NCBI RefSeq assembly: GCF_002210285.1
Contig: NZ_MWQE01000002.1
Location: forward strand, 62,001-126,000
Source of the DNA: Fibrobacter sp. UWR2
GTDB taxonomy: Bacteria; Fibrobacterota; Fibrobacteria; Fibrobacterales; Fibrobacteraceae
Direction of reading: 5' to 3'
Length of the DNA stretch: 64,000 nucleotides
Below, in pieces: positions 47,100 to 58,873 of the stretch (position 1 is its first letter; each line of letters begins with the position of its first letter). The notes under the pieces are model-generated. The model was not told where the DNA came from, ran no database searches, and saw only the letters and a list, made by a program, of their open reading frames with translations. The translations under genes were made by a program, and so were the position numbers.

Positions 47100-47136
47100 A
47101 AAAATAAGGGCTCTGCACAGCAGAACCCTTATTTTT
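47100..47136 (-). terminator. Terminator of ssrA
   Basis: A long, nearly perfect hairpin (about 15 bp) directly after the tmRNA 3' end, with a T-run on the minus strand. Confidence 0.85.
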
Positions 47137-47137
47137 C

Positions 47138-47494
47138 TGGAGGTGAGGGGAGTCGAACCCCTGTCCAAAATCACGTCCATGTCCATTCCTACAAGCTTTC
47201 CCTTCGTATTTAAGGTCTCGCCTTGTCCACGCCCAAGAAGGTCGGCGCAGATTTCAGCCAGCCTAGTGAATCTCGGAACCTACCCCCAGGCATGGCAGAT
47301 TCCTATCCCATATTTCGTCCGGACGTACATCCCGATGGGAGCGGAATGAGGCCCGGCGTTGCCGCTAATTAGGCAGCGAGTGCGTAGTTTTCGTCAGCAC
47401 TTATTTTTTTTCAGACTTTTTTACGAGTGCCCTCGTCTGAGACCTCGGCTTGCAACTAACACTTCGGTAACCCTGTCGATGCCAAAGCACCCCC
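47138..47494 (-). ncRNA. ssrA: Transfer-messenger RNA (tmRNA)
   Basis: Rescues stalled ribosomes and adds a degradation tag. 357 nt, one-piece. The ends pair as a tRNA-Ala acceptor (5' GGGGGTG with 3' CACCTCC, G3-U70 present), with a T arm GGTTCGACT. The tag reading frame (47369-47398) encodes ADENYALAA and a TAA stop, so with the charged Ala the tag is AADENYALAA. Pseudoknot stems lie between tag and tRNA-like end. CCA is not encoded. Promoter at 47516-47544; terminator at 47100-47136. Confidence 0.97.
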
Positions 47495-52432: not shown

Positions 52433-52459
52433 GTCATGCCCCGCTTGACGGGGCGTATC
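52433..52459. repeat. GTCAT...CTTGA hairpin repeat, copy 2
   Basis: Stem GCCCC with GGGGC around the CTTGA loop, same frame as the copies at 41374 and 62308 but with different stem bases. Confidence 0.6.
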
Positions 52460-52467
52460 CCTTTTAT

Positions 52468-52508
52468 CGTCATTCTGAGCGTAGCCGCAAGGCGAAGTCG
52501 AAGAATCC
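52468..52508. repeat. GTCATTCTGAGCG...GAATC dispersed repeat
   Basis: CGTCATTCTGAGCGTAGCCG...GGCGAAGTCGAAGAATC; this type of sequence is a known kind of intergenic repeat in many bacterial genomes. It shares the GTCAT start with the hairpin family. Confidence 0.5.
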
Positions 52509-52579
52509 AGTCACTTTTTTACTACTATTTCCCACTGACATAGCCCTTTGCCACCCGGCATTGGGCGACCGGAAATTTT

Positions 52580-52758
52580 GAGATTCGTCTCTTATTCTTG
52601 GTACAGAAAAATCACCACTTTCTAAAGTCACTAAAGGATAAGACGAACGCTCACGTCCCAACTGGGGCGTGGGTCGTTTTGTGCTTATTTAGTGACTGGG
52701 TTGTGGTGACCCTTCTGTACCGATAGGCACGTAAGCGACTCCACGCCTTTTTTGTTTT
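52580..52758 (+). ncRNA. Candidate structured RNA (long interrupted hairpin)
   Basis: A GAGA-TTCG-TCTC hairpin (52580-52591) precedes a rod of about 122 nt: 52600-52618 pairs with 52703-52721 (16 of 19), 52626-52635 with 52688-52697 (10 of 10), 52643-52646 with 52674-52677, and the apical 52652-52659 with 52664-52671. A T-rich run (52747-52758) could end a plus-strand transcript. No reading frame crosses it. The topology loosely recalls 6S RNA; a MITE with 19-bp terminal inverted repeats is the alternative. Confidence 0.4.
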
Positions 52759-52832
52759 CCCGACATCTTAGGCCAACGTCTCCGTGCATAAGAGGTGACT
52801 CGTTCATTTTTTACATGGAGCATGCCCCGATT

Positions 52833-54446
52833 ATGGCAAAGAAAAAAGCGGTCGAGACCTCACTGAACCTCGAAAACATTCTCTTTAACTGTCGCGATAT
52901 TTTGCGGGCTGCCCGAAATTCGGGTTCGTTCTTCGAAAAACGCGACATGATGCTCACGCTCGTGTTCTTGCGTTTTATTGGCGAAAAATTTGATGACGGT
53001 GTCGCCAAATTGCGCAACGCACTGATAGACCAAGGACTCGATCCCGATGATGAAGGGGTCCGCATCGCATTTTTTGAGGATATCTCCTTTACAGACGGAA
53101 CTTACTATTTGCCTCCCGAAGCTCGCTGGTCGAATATCATCGACACTCCTGCTCCAAAATTGAATTCTGCGCTTGACGGAGCTCTGCACAGCATTGCTAC
53201 CGACTCGAAAGACCTCAAGGGCTGCTTTGTCGAAGGCACGTTCATGACGCGAAACCTTGCCCCCAACGATATCAAGAAATTGGTGGACGAGGTGAACAAG
53301 ATAAGCCATAAAAAGTTCGGCGAAGAAAAGGACTTGATCGGCCGCGTCTATGAATATTTCTTGAAGGAATTTGCCGTAAACGCCACGAAGGAAGAAGGTG
53401 AATTCTATACTCCCCACGATGTGGTGCAGTTGATAGCCTCGATGATTGAACCTTACGACGGAACGCTCTACGACCCGTGCTGTGGCTCGGGCGGCATGTT
53501 CATCCAGAGTGCGGAACTGGTCAAATCCAAGCAGGGCGACGTCAACCGCATCAACATTTACGGTCAAGAAAAAGAGGCCGCCACTTACCGCCTTGCCAAA
53601 ATGAACCTCGCCTTGCGCGGGCTCAGCCACCATCTGGGCGAGACAAACGATTCAACATTTAGGAACGACTTGCACAGGGGACTCTATTTCGATTACATCA
53701 TGGCGAACCCGCCTTTTAATCTCAAGGGTTGGTACGACAGCGATTTGAAAGATGATGCGCGCTGGGCCGATTACGAAACTCCTCCAGAAAGCAATGCAAA
53801 CTACGCTTGGATTTTGCACATGCTCTCGCACCTCAAGCCTGCCGATGGTGTTGCCGGATTCTTGCTGGCGAACGGTGCGTTGAATGATGAGGATACGGTT
53901 AACATTCGCAAGAAACTTATCCAAAACGACAAGGTTGAAGCGATTGTCGTATTGCCGCGAGAATTGTTCATTACCACCGATATCAGTGTGACGCTATGGA
54001 TACTGAACCAGAACAAGAAGGGCGGAAAATACAACGGTCGTAAACTGCGCAACCGCACGCACGAAATTCTCTTTATGGATTTACGTCAATGGACGGAAAA
54101 CCCCGTGAAGAACGAACAGAAGAAAAAGGTGCGTCTTGTCACGGAGCAGATTGAACGTGCCGTTGGCATCTATCACACCTGGCAGAACGAGGGAACCAAC
54201 GGCATGAATTATGCGGTGCCGGAACTTTACCGCAGCGTAGGAATTAAGGAAATCGAAGAAAAGGGTTGGGCACTTACGCCGAGCAAGTATATCGAATTCA
54301 TCGACCACGATCTGGATATTGATTACAAGAAAGAAATGAAACGTATTCAGAAAGAAATGAAGGATTTGCTCAAGACAGAACGCGAGTCGCAGCAGATGCT
54401 TGTTGATGCATTCAAAGGAATTGGCTTTGATATTGAGGATCGATAA
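52833..54446 (+). CDS. hsdM: Type I restriction-modification DNA methyltransferase subunit
   Basis: Methylates adenines in the target set by HsdS. 537 residues; N-terminal helical HsdM_N region (about 10-150), then the N6-adenine methyltransferase domain with motif I DPCCGSGG (Asp214) and motif IV NPPF (Asn292). It is the usual M subunit of type I systems. Start ATG 52833 (MAKKKAVETS); an in-frame ATG at 52815 is also possible, GGAG lies between. It overlaps hsdS by one base (TAATG). Confidence 0.95.
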   Translation: MAKKKAVETSLNLENILFNCRDILRAARNSGSFFEKRDMMLTLVFLRFIGEKFDDGVAKLRNALIDQGLDPDDEGVRIAFFEDISFTDGTYYLPPEARWSNIIDTPAPKLNSALDGALHSIATDSKDLKGCFVEGTFMTRNLAPNDIKKLVDEVNKISHKKFGEEKDLIGRVYEYFLKEFAVNATKEEGEFYTPHDVVQLIASMIEPYDGTLYDPCCGSGGMFIQSAELVKSKQGDVNRINIYGQEKEAATYRLAKMNLALRGLSHHLGETNDSTFRNDLHRGLYFDYIMANPPFNLKGWYDSDLKDDARWADYETPPESNANYAWILHMLSHLKPADGVAGFLLANGALNDEDTVNIRKKLIQNDKVEAIVVLPRELFITTDISVTLWILNQNKKGGKYNGRKLRNRTHEILFMDLRQWTENPVKNEQKKKVRLVTEQIERAVGIYHTWQNEGTNGMNYAVPELYRSVGIKEIEEKGWALTPSKYIEFIDHDLDIDYKKEMKRIQKEMKDLLKTERESQQMLVDAFKGIGFDIEDR

Positions 54447-55543
54447 TGGCTGTGAAGAAATATAAATTTGGTGATTTGATTGAATTAACGAATGAACAAA
54501 ATTCTGATGGGAAATATGGGGTAAATGATGCCATCGGAGTGAATATTGGCAAGACTATTATTCCTATGAGGGGTGATAATTCGCAAAAAGACTTACGAAA
54601 ATTTCATATTGTTCCTCCTAGGCATTTTGCTTATAATCCACGTGGGAGTCGAAAACTTGGACTTGGTTATAATGATACAAACGTTACATATATAATCACA
54701 TTCAATGATAACGTTTTTCGAATAAAAAAAACAAAAGAAACTACGGTCTTAAATAAGTATTTGTTTATGTATTTAAGCAGACAAGAGTGGGATCGCTATG
54801 CGGAAAGCGTGTCTTGGGGAAGTTCAACAGAAGTTTTTGATTGGAAAGTTTTTTGCGATATAGATATTGTTTTGCCAGATTTGCCGACCCAACAGAAGTA
54901 TGTGGATATTTACGAGTCAATGGTCGCTAACCAAAAATCTTACGAAAAAGGCCTTGACGACCTAAAGTTCACCTGCGATGCGTATATTGAAGAACTGCGA
55001 AGAAAAACGAAATGTGAAAAAATTGGAAAATATCTACATGAAGAAAATGTACGAAACAATGATAATAAACTAAACAACGTTTTGGGCGTGAGCAAAGATA
55101 AAGTTTTTATTCCAACCGTAGCTAATTTGATGGGAATAGATCTTGATAATTATAAAGTAGTCAATCCAAATTGGTTCGCTTACAGCAATCGAATAAATAT
55201 TGGAAGTATAGCGTTAAGGTATAAATCTGCATGTTTGGTTTCCCCATCATATACATTTTTTTCAATAGATGAACAAAAGATTAATCCAGAATATTTTGCC
55301 TTATGGCTTCAACGAGAGGAATTTTTACACTTTGCATTTTTTTATTCTATGGGAACAGTAAAGGACGAGTTAGATGTTGAAGAACTTGGACAGATGGAAA
55401 TACCTATTCCTAGTTTAAATGTACAAGAAAGCATTGTAAATATCTACAAAGTCTATACAGAACGCAAGCGCATCAACGAACAGCTGAAACAACAGATAAA
55501 GGATATCTGTCCCATTCTCATCAAGGGTTCGTTGGAGGAATAA
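54446..55543 (+). CDS. hsdS: Type I restriction-modification specificity subunit
   Basis: Sets the DNA sequence recognised by the complex. 365 residues with two target-recognition domains (about 5-140 and 190-320) separated and followed by conserved helices: LPTQQKYVDIYESMVANQKSYEKG and NVQESIVNIYKVYTERKRIN. The protein is toward the short end for a two-domain HsdS. It is clearly more AT-rich than hsdM and hsdR on either side, as expected for a locus whose recognition domains are exchanged between strains. Confidence 0.93.
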   Translation: MAVKKYKFGDLIELTNEQNSDGKYGVNDAIGVNIGKTIIPMRGDNSQKDLRKFHIVPPRHFAYNPRGSRKLGLGYNDTNVTYIITFNDNVFRIKKTKETTVLNKYLFMYLSRQEWDRYAESVSWGSSTEVFDWKVFCDIDIVLPDLPTQQKYVDIYESMVANQKSYEKGLDDLKFTCDAYIEELRRKTKCEKIGKYLHEENVRNNDNKLNNVLGVSKDKVFIPTVANLMGIDLDNYKVVNPNWFAYSNRINIGSIALRYKSACLVSPSYTFFSIDEQKINPEYFALWLQREEFLHFAFFYSMGTVKDELDVEELGQMEIPIPSLNVQESIVNIYKVYTERKRINEQLKQQIKDICPILIKGSLEE

Positions 55544-55546
55544 ATT

Positions 55547-58500
55547 ATGGCGAAATTGATAAACTTCAACGGTCGCTTCTGCGAATCGGATTACGAATTT
55601 GCCTTTATCTCATATCTTGAAACGGAAGGTTGGCTGTATTTGCCGGGCAACAAACTTGCCCGAGAAGAAATCAAGGAAGTCCTTCACGCTGATGACATCA
55701 AGGAATATCTGGCCACAAATAATCCCGACTTGCCGAAGGACGATGTCGAAAAACTGTTCGACACCATTCGCCTCGTGGGTGCCGAAAGCGATTTCGCGAC
55801 ACTCCACAAGTTCTACAACTGGCTTATAGACGGCATCAAGTTCACTCCGCAAGACGGGAAACCAAGAACAATACAACTGATAGATTTTGAACGCCCTGAA
55901 AATAATATTTTCCGCGTTGTGAATCAGTTGACGGTAGAATACATCAACAACGGCAAAAAAGAAAACCGCCGTCCCGATGTAATGCTATATGTAAATGGGT
56001 TCCCACTTTGCGTTATAGAACTGAAAAACCCCGCCGATGCAAATGCCACTATTTATGACGCCTGGGAACAAATCAACATCCGCTACTGGCGCGATATTCC
56101 GCATCTTTTGCATTATTGCCCATTGGCCTGTATTTCCGACGGCGTAAAGACCCGTCTTGGAACAGTCCGCACGCCTTACGAACATTTCTATGCGTGGCGA
56201 CGAATAAACGAAGGTGACAAGATTTCAACGATGCCGTTTGCCGAAACCGAGGCGATGATAAAGGGCGTCTATAACCCAGTCCGCTTCCTTGAAATTTTCC
56301 GCGATTACGTTTACTTTCAGGACAGCGAATACGACCACGACGAAAAGGAAATCGTCTGCCGTTATCCGCAGTTCTTCGCCTCCCGTTTGCTAAAACAGAG
56401 CATTGTCAAGTCTGTCATTGAAAAAAGCGGCAAGGGCGGCACCTACTTTGGTGCGACAGGCTGTGGTAAAACTTACACGATGGCGTTTCTTGCCCGTCAA
56501 TTGGCACTTCGCTGTTCCGATATTCCCGAAATCGGGTCTCCTACAATCGTGATGATTGTGGACCGCGAGGAATTACAAAAGCAGGGAGCAAAACTTTTTA
56601 AGAAAAGCACGGAGTTCCTGAATCTTGGAAGCGTCGAAGTCGTAAAGAACCGCAAACAACTTCGTGAAGAACTGGGTGCGCGCGAAAGCGGAGGGTTCTA
56701 CATTTGCACCATCCAAAAATTCTGCGACCGCGAAGACGATAAAATCGGCCTGATCAACAACCGTGCCAACATCATCTGCTTTTCAGACGAGGCTCACCGA
56801 ACCCAACTGGAACATTCCAAGAAAATCCAGTTCAGCAAAGACGAAAACATGAAGGCGATGATTTCGAAGCCTTATGCGAAAGTCCTGCGCGAAGCGTTCC
56901 CGCATGCGACTTTCGTTGGCTTTACGGGCACGCCGATTGCAGAAACGTACCAGACCTTCGGTGACGAAATCGACCGCTATACCATGGACCAGGCGGTTGC
57001 CGACGGCTTGACGGTTCCTATCAAGTATCACCCTCGAATTGCAAAGGTGCTGCTTGACAAGGAAAAAGTCAAAGAAATTGAAGATTACTATAAGAAGTGC
57101 GCTGAAGATGGTGCAACAGCCGAAGACATTCAGGCCAGTAAAAAGGCGATGAGTTCCATGGAGGTGATTCTTGGGGATCCCGCTCGCTTGGAACGCCTCG
57201 CAGTTGATATTCACGACCATTATGTTTCTAGTTGCGCAGGCGAACCGGACCGCGTACAAAAAGCAATGATCGTGTGCTCTTCTCGCCAAATTGCATACGA
57301 CCTGCTGAAGAAATTCCAGGAGAAGTATCCTGAATGGTTTGTCGAAAAGAAAACACCTGATGGTGTTATAGCAACTGAAGAAGAATTGAAGAAAATGCAG
57401 CCCGTGCCTTTTATGGCGATGGTTGCAAGCGTCGGGAGTAACGACCGCAAGGAAATGTACGATTATCTTGGTGGAGTCAAAAACGATTCCCGTTCCGAAG
57501 AATTAGATATTGCCTTCAAGAACGAAAAGTCAAATTTCCGAATCGTCATTGTCGTGGATATGTGGATAACGGGTTTCGACGTTCCCTGTCTTACTTACAT
57601 GTACAATGACAAGCCTCTGAAAAAGCACATGCTTATCCAGACAATAAGTCGTGTCAACCGTAAAGATACGGGCAAGGGATATGGCTTGATTGTGGACTAT
57701 ATCGGCATTCGCGACAACATGCGCGAAGCGATGAAACTTTATGGCGGAGATACATCCGTTGCTCCGACGGTAGATGATGTGGAACAGGCAACAGCCGTAT
57801 TCAGGGGCGAATTGGAAATTCTAAAGCACCTGTTTGCCGGGTATGATATCACTCCGTTTCTGGATCCGGAATGCGAACCAGGAAGGCGGTACATGCTGCT
57901 TGCAAAAGCCGCTGAATACGTGTTTACCTCAACGCAAGAACTCAATTCGGAAAACAAGAACGGAGCAAAGGCTCCGCAAAAGGTTTCCTTCAAGAATTAC
58001 TTCTTGCAGGTTGTGAAACGGATGCGCGTGGCGTTTGATATCTGCTCGCCTTCTGGAAATTTGAGCGAAGAAGAATCTGCCCTGGCGCAGTGTTTTATGG
58101 CGATTGCAGGCTTTGTGCGGAAAATGAGCGGAACAAGCGACATCGATACCGATACGATGAATCGCAATGTCGCTAAAATGGTAGAAGAAGCGCTCAAGTA
58201 TAGCAAGGTCGAAAGCGTTCTTGAAAGCGGCGATGAAGAGAATCTTTTCAGCCCGGAATTCTACGAGAAACTTTCCGATGTGAAGATGCCCGCAACTAAG
58301 CTTGAACTTCTGGTGAAAATGCTCCGCAAGCAAATCAAGGAATTCGGGAAGATTAACCAAATTGCTGCAAAATCGTTCTTGGAAATGCTCGAAAGGACAA
58401 TCGAGGAATATCACGAACGCCGCAAGGCGTTGACCGCTGAAGAAGCGGGAGAAACACAGGAACACGCGACGGACGAAATTATCAAGAACGCGACAGAACA

Positions 58501-58873
58501 AGCGCTTGAGATTTTGCGCCAGATGAACGAAAACCGCGAAAGCTTCCGCAAGATGGGCTTGACCTTCGAAGAAAAGGCTTTCTACGATATTCTGCTTGCT
58601 CTCCGCGACCAATACAACTTTGAATATGGCGAAGACAAGAACGTTGACGGCGTGGTCATTAACGAAAAATGCAAGGCCTTGGCGAAGAAGGTGAAGGAAA
58701 TCATCGACACGAAATCTTCATTTGCCGACTGGCTCAACAATCAGAATGTGCGCAACGCCCTCAAAGTGGATATCAAAATCTGCCTTGTGAAAAACGGATA
58801 CCCGCCGCAGTACAGTCCCGAAGAATTCAGCAAGGTTATGGAACAAGTGGAAAATTTTGAGGAGAATCAGTAA
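55547..58873 (+). CDS. hsdR: Type I restriction endonuclease subunit
   Basis: Motor and nuclease of the type I complex; cuts unmethylated DNA after translocation. 1108 residues. N-terminal PD-(D/E)xK nuclease with Asp144 and Glu158-x-Lys160 (RRPDVML...IELK); SF2 helicase with Walker A GATGCGKT (Lys308), DEAH (Asp414), FTGTPI and, later, ITGFDVP...QTISRVNR; C-terminal helical region with coiled-coil character. All catalytic motifs are intact, so the system is probably functional. It starts 3 bases after hsdS. Confidence 0.95.
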   Translation: MAKLINFNGRFCESDYEFAFISYLETEGWLYLPGNKLAREEIKEVLHADDIKEYLATNNPDLPKDDVEKLFDTIRLVGAESDFATLHKFYNWLIDGIKFTPQDGKPRTIQLIDFERPENNIFRVVNQLTVEYINNGKKENRRPDVMLYVNGFPLCVIELKNPADANATIYDAWEQINIRYWRDIPHLLHYCPLACISDGVKTRLGTVRTPYEHFYAWRRINEGDKISTMPFAETEAMIKGVYNPVRFLEIFRDYVYFQDSEYDHDEKEIVCRYPQFFASRLLKQSIVKSVIEKSGKGGTYFGATGCGKTYTMAFLARQLALRCSDIPEIGSPTIVMIVDREELQKQGAKLFKKSTEFLNLGSVEVVKNRKQLREELGARESGGFYICTIQKFCDREDDKIGLINNRANIICFSDEAHRTQLEHSKKIQFSKDENMKAMISKPYAKVLREAFPHATFVGFTGTPIAETYQTFGDEIDRYTMDQAVADGLTVPIKYHPRIAKVLLDKEKVKEIEDYYKKCAEDGATAEDIQASKKAMSSMEVILGDPARLERLAVDIHDHYVSSCAGEPDRVQKAMIVCSSRQIAYDLLKKFQEKYPEWFVEKKTPDGVIATEEELKKMQPVPFMAMVASVGSNDRKEMYDYLGGVKNDSRSEELDIAFKNEKSNFRIVIVVDMWITGFDVPCLTYMYNDKPLKKHMLIQTISRVNRKDTGKGYGLIVDYIGIRDNMREAMKLYGGDTSVAPTVDDVEQATAVFRGELEILKHLFAGYDITPFLDPECEPGRRYMLLAKAAEYVFTSTQELNSENKNGAKAPQKVSFKNYFLQVVKRMRVAFDICSPSGNLSEEESALAQCFMAIAGFVRKMSGTSDIDTDTMNRNVAKMVEEALKYSKVESVLESGDEENLFSPEFYEKLSDVKMPATKLELLVKMLRKQIKEFGKINQIAAKSFLEMLERTIEEYHERRKALTAEEAGETQEHATDEIIKNATEQALEILRQMNENRESFRKMGLTFEEKAFYDILLALRDQYNFEYGEDKNVDGVVINEKCKALAKKVKEIIDTKSSFADWLNNQNVRNALKVDIKICLVKNGYPPQYSPEEFSKVMEQVENFEENQ

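Follow-up and report, generated by a model that had tools for sequence, protein, structure and literature searches.

What is the function of the structured, non-coding sequence that lies upstream of a type I restriction operon in Fibrobacter sp. UWR2? The locus is contained in a stretch of 64,000 nucleotides (nt) (assembly GCF_002210285.1, contig NZ_MWQE01000002.1, positions 62,001 to 126,000 of the forward strand), hereafter the window, in whose own positions all coordinates are given. A first-pass annotation had described a rod-shaped element there and offered as candidates a 6S-like RNA, an antisense or leader RNA for hsdM, or a miniature inverted-repeat transposable element (MITE). We find that the hsdM–hsdS–hsdR operon has a 5' leader of ~217 nt, of which the rod forms the core (Table 1), and we consider it probable that this leader is a cis-acting terminator/antiterminator attenuator, which controls defence operons through two mutually exclusive folds.

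The pairings by which the rod was recognized are exact in the letters: 52600–52618 (GGTACAGAAAAATCACCAC) matches 52703–52721 (GTGGTGACCCTTCTGTACC) and 52626–52635 matches 52688–52697, and the apical stem (52650–52658/52665–52673), the UUCG mini-hairpin and the T-run after the rod (52748–52753) are all present. The + strand of 52560–52780 folds with a minimum free energy (MFE) of −83.9 kcal/mol; shuffled sequences average −57.6 (z −5.25), and none of 200 folds as well. Together with the covariation of the two rod strands as RNA, this bears out the claim of a structured element. The − strand scores alike, as for any palindrome; energy alone therefore gives no strand, and the orientation is taken from the comparisons. 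Among 50 diverse members, 95.0% of 2839 cells are paired, 51 of 58 pairs are doubly changed and double-change cells number 535 versus 145 in shuffles. Since this alignment was fitted to the rod (it includes one reverse-strand row, as does the model R2 described below), the independent test is RNAalifold on a MAFFT alignment, which gives 58 rod pairs, 18 of them doubly changed. The rod-only helices x:w, y:z and a:b are 95.4% paired on the MAFFT alignment of the terminator test, and the pairs of the variable arms are doubly changed in most relatives. A broad MAFFT alignment, in which the variable arms misalign, yielded a poor RNAalifold consensus, and pairs were therefore counted on named helices. 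The basal GAG:CUC closing stem of the MFE rod, formed by the UUCG segment with CGACTCC, was rejected; covariation does not support it, so this predicted stem is probably wrong, and a local GAG..CTC hairpin is likelier in its place.

Beyond what had been annotated, the element includes a further covarying hairpin on its 5' side, where it probably starts at 52537, and extends downstream through CGACTCCACGCC-TTTTTT; this segment and the apical stem's 3' strand are predicted to form a terminator that excludes the rod. The terminator helices b:c and z:w, which the rod lacks, are paired in 95.6% of cells among 52 diverse members, on a MAFFT alignment that was not built for the terminator; 12 pairs are doubly changed versus 5.0 in shuffles, with 34 double-change cells versus 7.2 (0 of 500 shuffles), and slid controls all drop to 36–54%. 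Taken alone, b:c is 96.8% paired, and 6 of its 11 pairs are doubly changed. Segments a, b and c change jointly, from GCG to ATA in four sequences and from ATA to GCG in one. They read GCTCGCGC/GCGCGAGC/GCTCGCGC at another leader (G000:C2:141561), and they differ widely with both pairings kept in genomes G005 and G113, the latter from another family and with an N6_N4 DNA methylase gene next downstream. A U-run of at least five follows c in 141 of 144 elements. Tested for the features of an attenuator, the leader has terminator and antiterminator helices that share a strand, are mutually exclusive and are both conserved, a U-tract directly 3' of the terminator stem, and a position between a promoter, called by sequence only, and a same-strand gene. 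On this comparative evidence, both the rod and the terminator fold are shown by covariation.

In the attenuator that we propose, the rod state would have x:w, y:z, a:b and both variable arms paired; the terminator could not form because segment b is held by a, and RNA polymerase would read into the restriction–modification (R-M) operon. In the other state, x:y would make a 5' hairpin, while z:w and b:c would make a long hairpin that, with U6 behind it, would act as an intrinsic terminator and end transcription ~80 nt before hsdM. The flipping signal could be a factor or RNA that recognizes the recurring loops described below, or transcription kinetics. From the comparisons we infer a working terminator, the rod as the permissive state, a signal that chooses between the folds, and an effect on expression. 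The predicted energies of the two folds are close (means over 136 elements of −66.9 kcal/mol for the rod and −61.1 for the terminator; −90.6 and −81.5 for the window's leader). Several points weigh against this reading. At this leader the rod is predicted to be ~9 kcal/mol more stable than the terminator, which might therefore rarely form without a trigger; the cell numbers in the structure tests overstate the independent events, because the counted sequences are related; and about a third of the downstream genes have no recognizable defence identity.

The location of the element agrees with the earlier candidate of a leader RNA for hsdM. Where the downstream region was readable (152 cases), it precedes a same-strand open reading frame (ORF), at a median gap of 67 nt. 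The scan selected same-strand ORFs, so that orientation was not a blind test, but Pfam identifies most of these ORFs as genuine members of known gene families. Conservation starts at GACATAG, which in 123 anchored elements is preceded, at −13 to −7, by a T-[A/T]4-TT block that we presume to be the −10 box of the leader promoter; such a box and the presumed start adjoin the window's element upstream. An antisense RNA is unsupported, as there is no overlap between the element and hsdM, and the element is read in sense orientation.

Downstream genes were grouped into 48 protein clusters, whose representatives were typed with Pfam and PADLOC, and 97 of the 152 fall in R-M or other defence clusters, a share that is 73% in the best-scoring third and 58% in the weakest. 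Nearly every type is represented (I, II, IIL, III, ISP and DISARM), with genes for HsdM-type N6 methylases, type III Mod, type ISP, MmeI, EcoRI-type and D12 methylases, C5 methylases, the Tsp45I endonuclease, HsdR, DrmD and HKD+Snf2 helicase. The remaining genes include DUF4417, TPR, lipoprotein/Fib_succ_major, acyltransferase, UvrD, NERD and others. DNA methylases follow four of the five leaders in the UWR2 genome, which also has methylases with no leader (at C13, plus a weak one at C9); in nine other genomes, a leader stands at roughly ten of about 38 N6 methylase loci, as counted by eye. Since methylase loci without it exist, the leader is selective and not a generic 5' untranslated region (UTR). 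Tandem leader–gene units ~1.8–2.1 kb apart are seen at L085, L086 and L099–L103, typically a DUF4417-like gene with its own leader and then an R-M gene with its own; DUF4417 may be an unrecognized defence gene.

How widely is this leader distributed? The element is multicopy, with five copies in the UWR2 genome by covariance model R1, which was built from 27 aligned copies (two further weak matches are the reverse strand of two of the five). Near-identical copies were not found: in a DNA search the best other copy is 79% identical, and the stems differ by compensatory changes (GGTACAGA..TCTGTACC versus CGAACCTG..CAGGTTCG). In the host family, BLAST gives matches in 76 of 111 genomes, and R1 finds the element in 51 of 60 genomes with a completeness of 90% or more, at up to 20 copies per genome. 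At the level of the phylum, the broader model R2 detects it in 94 of 168 genomes, which belong to 10 of 41 genera and to four families. A pattern scan over named genomes returned Fibrobacter and Fibrobacteraceae records only, and viral contigs gave no match to the exact core pattern. The leader at G000:C2:141561 (L064/L090) lies ~15.6 kb past the end of the window, before an N6 methylase with an HSDR_N_2 domain. The closest paralogue (L002/L092, G000:C7:35095) precedes a TPR protein (642 aa) with a HELTH motif in its C-terminal half, and a divergent PDDEXK/YhcG-like ORF upstream of it was recognized by eye only.

The 6S-like candidate does not hold up. No Rfam family, 6S included, matches the element, and an RF00013 search of the UWR2 genome gave no 6S RNA match, the same model matching 5 of 14 control genomes; this lineage either lacks a 6S gene or has one too divergent to match. 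The element is like 6S RNA (RF00013) in its rod-like shape and its length of about 180 nt, and unlike it in being a leader of many copies, each before a different gene, instead of a free-standing gene in one or two copies.

The two arms of the rod can also fold locally, the 5' arm as GAAA-loop-UUUC and the 3' arm as GGG-loop-CCC, and their loops are complementary and could kiss. Nearly all loops (142 of 144) fall into about 15 sequences (CTACCAC, CGACCAAA, CTGGTAAA and others), which are reused before unrelated genes, whereas the arm flanking them has 82 variants in 130. So few loop classes beside so variable an arm suggest that something reads the loops or that kissing constrains them. In sixteen elements the 5' arm recurs as a second, locus-matched copy ~40–60 nt past the terminator, with z of ~20–50 (all others ~3 or less): L065/L089 (G000:C11:87786), L091 (G000:C2:48741), L069–L075, L077–L082 and L165. 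Type II R-M genes follow 15 of the 15 second-arm elements with a readable gene versus 7 of 137 elements that have no second arm, a comparison whose statistical support is overstated because the lineages are related. The second-arm element at G000:C2:48741 is of the short-apex type, which makes simple descent less likely. We place no weight on a cross-locus duplex-energy test of second-arm specificity, as shared constant segments blurred its outcome. At type II R-M operons, the copy past the terminator would offer an extra partner for the 3' arm, presumably as a further feedback step.

The same observations could be explained by an antisense-style feedback, in which the terminated leader accumulates as a small RNA, its 3' arm pairs with the 5' arm of readthrough mRNAs or with the second-arm copy, starting from kissing loops, and RNase III cleavage is triggered to limit R-M expression. 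The local hairpins, the discrete loop classes and the second arms before type II systems all speak for it; however, most elements, the window's included, have no second arm, and intramolecular pairing should beat pairing in trans. We hold such a feedback to be possible, if rather unlikely; it need not replace attenuation but could be added to it. Plasmid copy-control antisense pairs (CopA/CopT, RNAI/RNAII) have complementary hairpin loops and start pairing by kissing in a copy-specific manner. The leader is like them in its complementary loops and in a specificity that differs between copies, and unlike them in holding both partners in one transcript and having no replication gene. A related explanation takes the long duplex merely as an RNase III cleavage site that sets mRNA stability, with the terminator secondary. 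The arms do vary freely while staying paired, as if duplex length alone mattered, but the conservation of b:c and z:w, the three-way co-changes, the U-tract and the discrete loop classes would be left unexplained, and we judge this account improbable.

A metabolite riboswitch, for example for S-adenosylmethionine (SAM), the methyltransferase cofactor, would fit the attenuator layout and the SAM-dependent methyltransferases that make up most downstream genes. We give it little credence, as no conserved unpaired pocket is obvious, none of the Rfam SAM families matches, and TPR, lipoprotein and DUF4417 genes carry the leader too. The many copies and the tandem arrays about 1.8 kb apart might recall a mobile repeat such as a MITE, or a recombination site moving with defence genes. 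Against this stand the divergence of the UWR2 copies, their compensatory stem changes, the sense orientation 5' of genes, and the promoter and terminator at fixed positions; target-site duplications were not searched for, and we regard a mobile repeat as very improbable indeed.

The attenuator reading places the leader beside known systems. It is like the trp, T-box and TRAP- or ANTAR-controlled attenuators in having two exclusive stems that share one strand, a U-tract after the second stem and a location in the 5' UTR. It is unlike them in that no leader peptide, tRNA-binding element, (G/U)AG repeats or ANTAR hexaloop was recognized in the leader and no Rfam family matches, in that the switch is a long self-complementary rod, and in that the targets are R-M and other defence genes. 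Two reviews (PMC3874152, PMC12707154) describe the regulation of R-M systems by C proteins, by methyltransferase autorepression and by the antisense RNAs of EcoRI and Eco29kI, with which the leader shares its proposed role in R-M expression; a term search of these reviews for RNA-level control gave no conserved leader attenuator. No earlier description of this leader was found in the literature searched, a survey of 224 RNA motifs lying outside that search. The attenuator is of a known kind, and the RNA family, the rod-based strand exchange and the association with defence genes appear to be new.

Table 1. Features of the leader and the operon that follows it (window positions)
Feature	Position	Strand	Basis or remark
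−10-like box (TACTATTT), presumed leader promoter	52523..52530	+	T-[A/T]4-TT block in 123 anchored relatives; inferred
Presumed transcription start, GACATA(G)	52537..52542	+	conservation in relatives starts here
5' hairpin H0 (GCCCTTTGCC-ACCC-GGCATTGGGC)	52543..52566	+	hairpin in 94/100 anchored elements, 50 different 5' strands
UUCG-capped mini-hairpin GAGA-UUCG-UCUC	52580..52591	+	sequence, folding
Segment x (CTCTTATTC)	52589..52597	+	partner w in rod, or y in 5' hairpin
5' arm	52600..52622	+	local hairpin GAAA-loop-UUUC, 52606–52622; loop complementary to loop of 52698–52712
Segment y (AGGATAAGACGAA)	52635..52647	+	partner z in rod, or x
Segment a (CTCACGTCC), 5' strand of apical antiterminator stem	52650..52658	+	a:b 98.3% paired, 52 sequences
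Segment b (GGGCGTGGGTCG)	52665..52676	+	partner a (rod/antiterminator) or c (terminator); three-way co-changes
Segment z (GTGCTTAT)	52681..52688	+	partner y (rod) or w (terminator)
3' arm	52698..52721	+	local hairpin GGG(T)-loop-(A)CCC, 52698–52712
Segment w (GATAGGCACG)	52722..52731	+	partner x (rod) or z (terminator)
Segment c (CGACTCCACGCC) and U6 tract, 3' half of intrinsic terminator	52736..52753	+	b:c pairing, U-runs in relatives
hsdM, first downstream gene, type I DNA methyltransferase, 537 aa	52833..54446	+	N6_Mtase 6e-88, HsdM_N
hsdS, specificity subunit	54446..55543	+	Methylase_S 5e-16
hsdR, restriction subunit	55547..58873	+	HSDR_N, SWI2_SNF2, T1RH-like_C

A short extragenic repeat-like sequence (TCATTCTGAGCGTAGCCGCAAGGCGAAGTCGAAGAATCC, 52436–52520) adjoins the leader upstream, and similar pieces lie 5' of other copies. 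The window also holds a tmRNA gene at 47135–47494 on the − strand (Rfam RF00023, 166 bits).

As a bolder and tentative extension of the attenuator, we envision a phylum-level RNA regulon, in which a single family of bistable leaders, diversified into about 15 loop 'addresses', would subject R-M and other antiviral genes to shared attenuation. Release would probably come from a trans signal linked to phage attack or to entry into a new host, and the feedback arm would be an addition at type II systems, in which restriction and methylation need balance. The regulators of R-M systems known so far are mainly C proteins, methyltransferase autorepression and antisense promoters. If true, a whole bacterial lineage would regulate its antiviral arsenal, from types I, II and III to ISP and DISARM, by one RNA-level switch. 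The leader would also offer a clean system in which to study RNA strand exchange, and a family-independent marker for new defence genes in Fibrobacter-group genomes, among which the DUF4417 and TPR proteins may be found.
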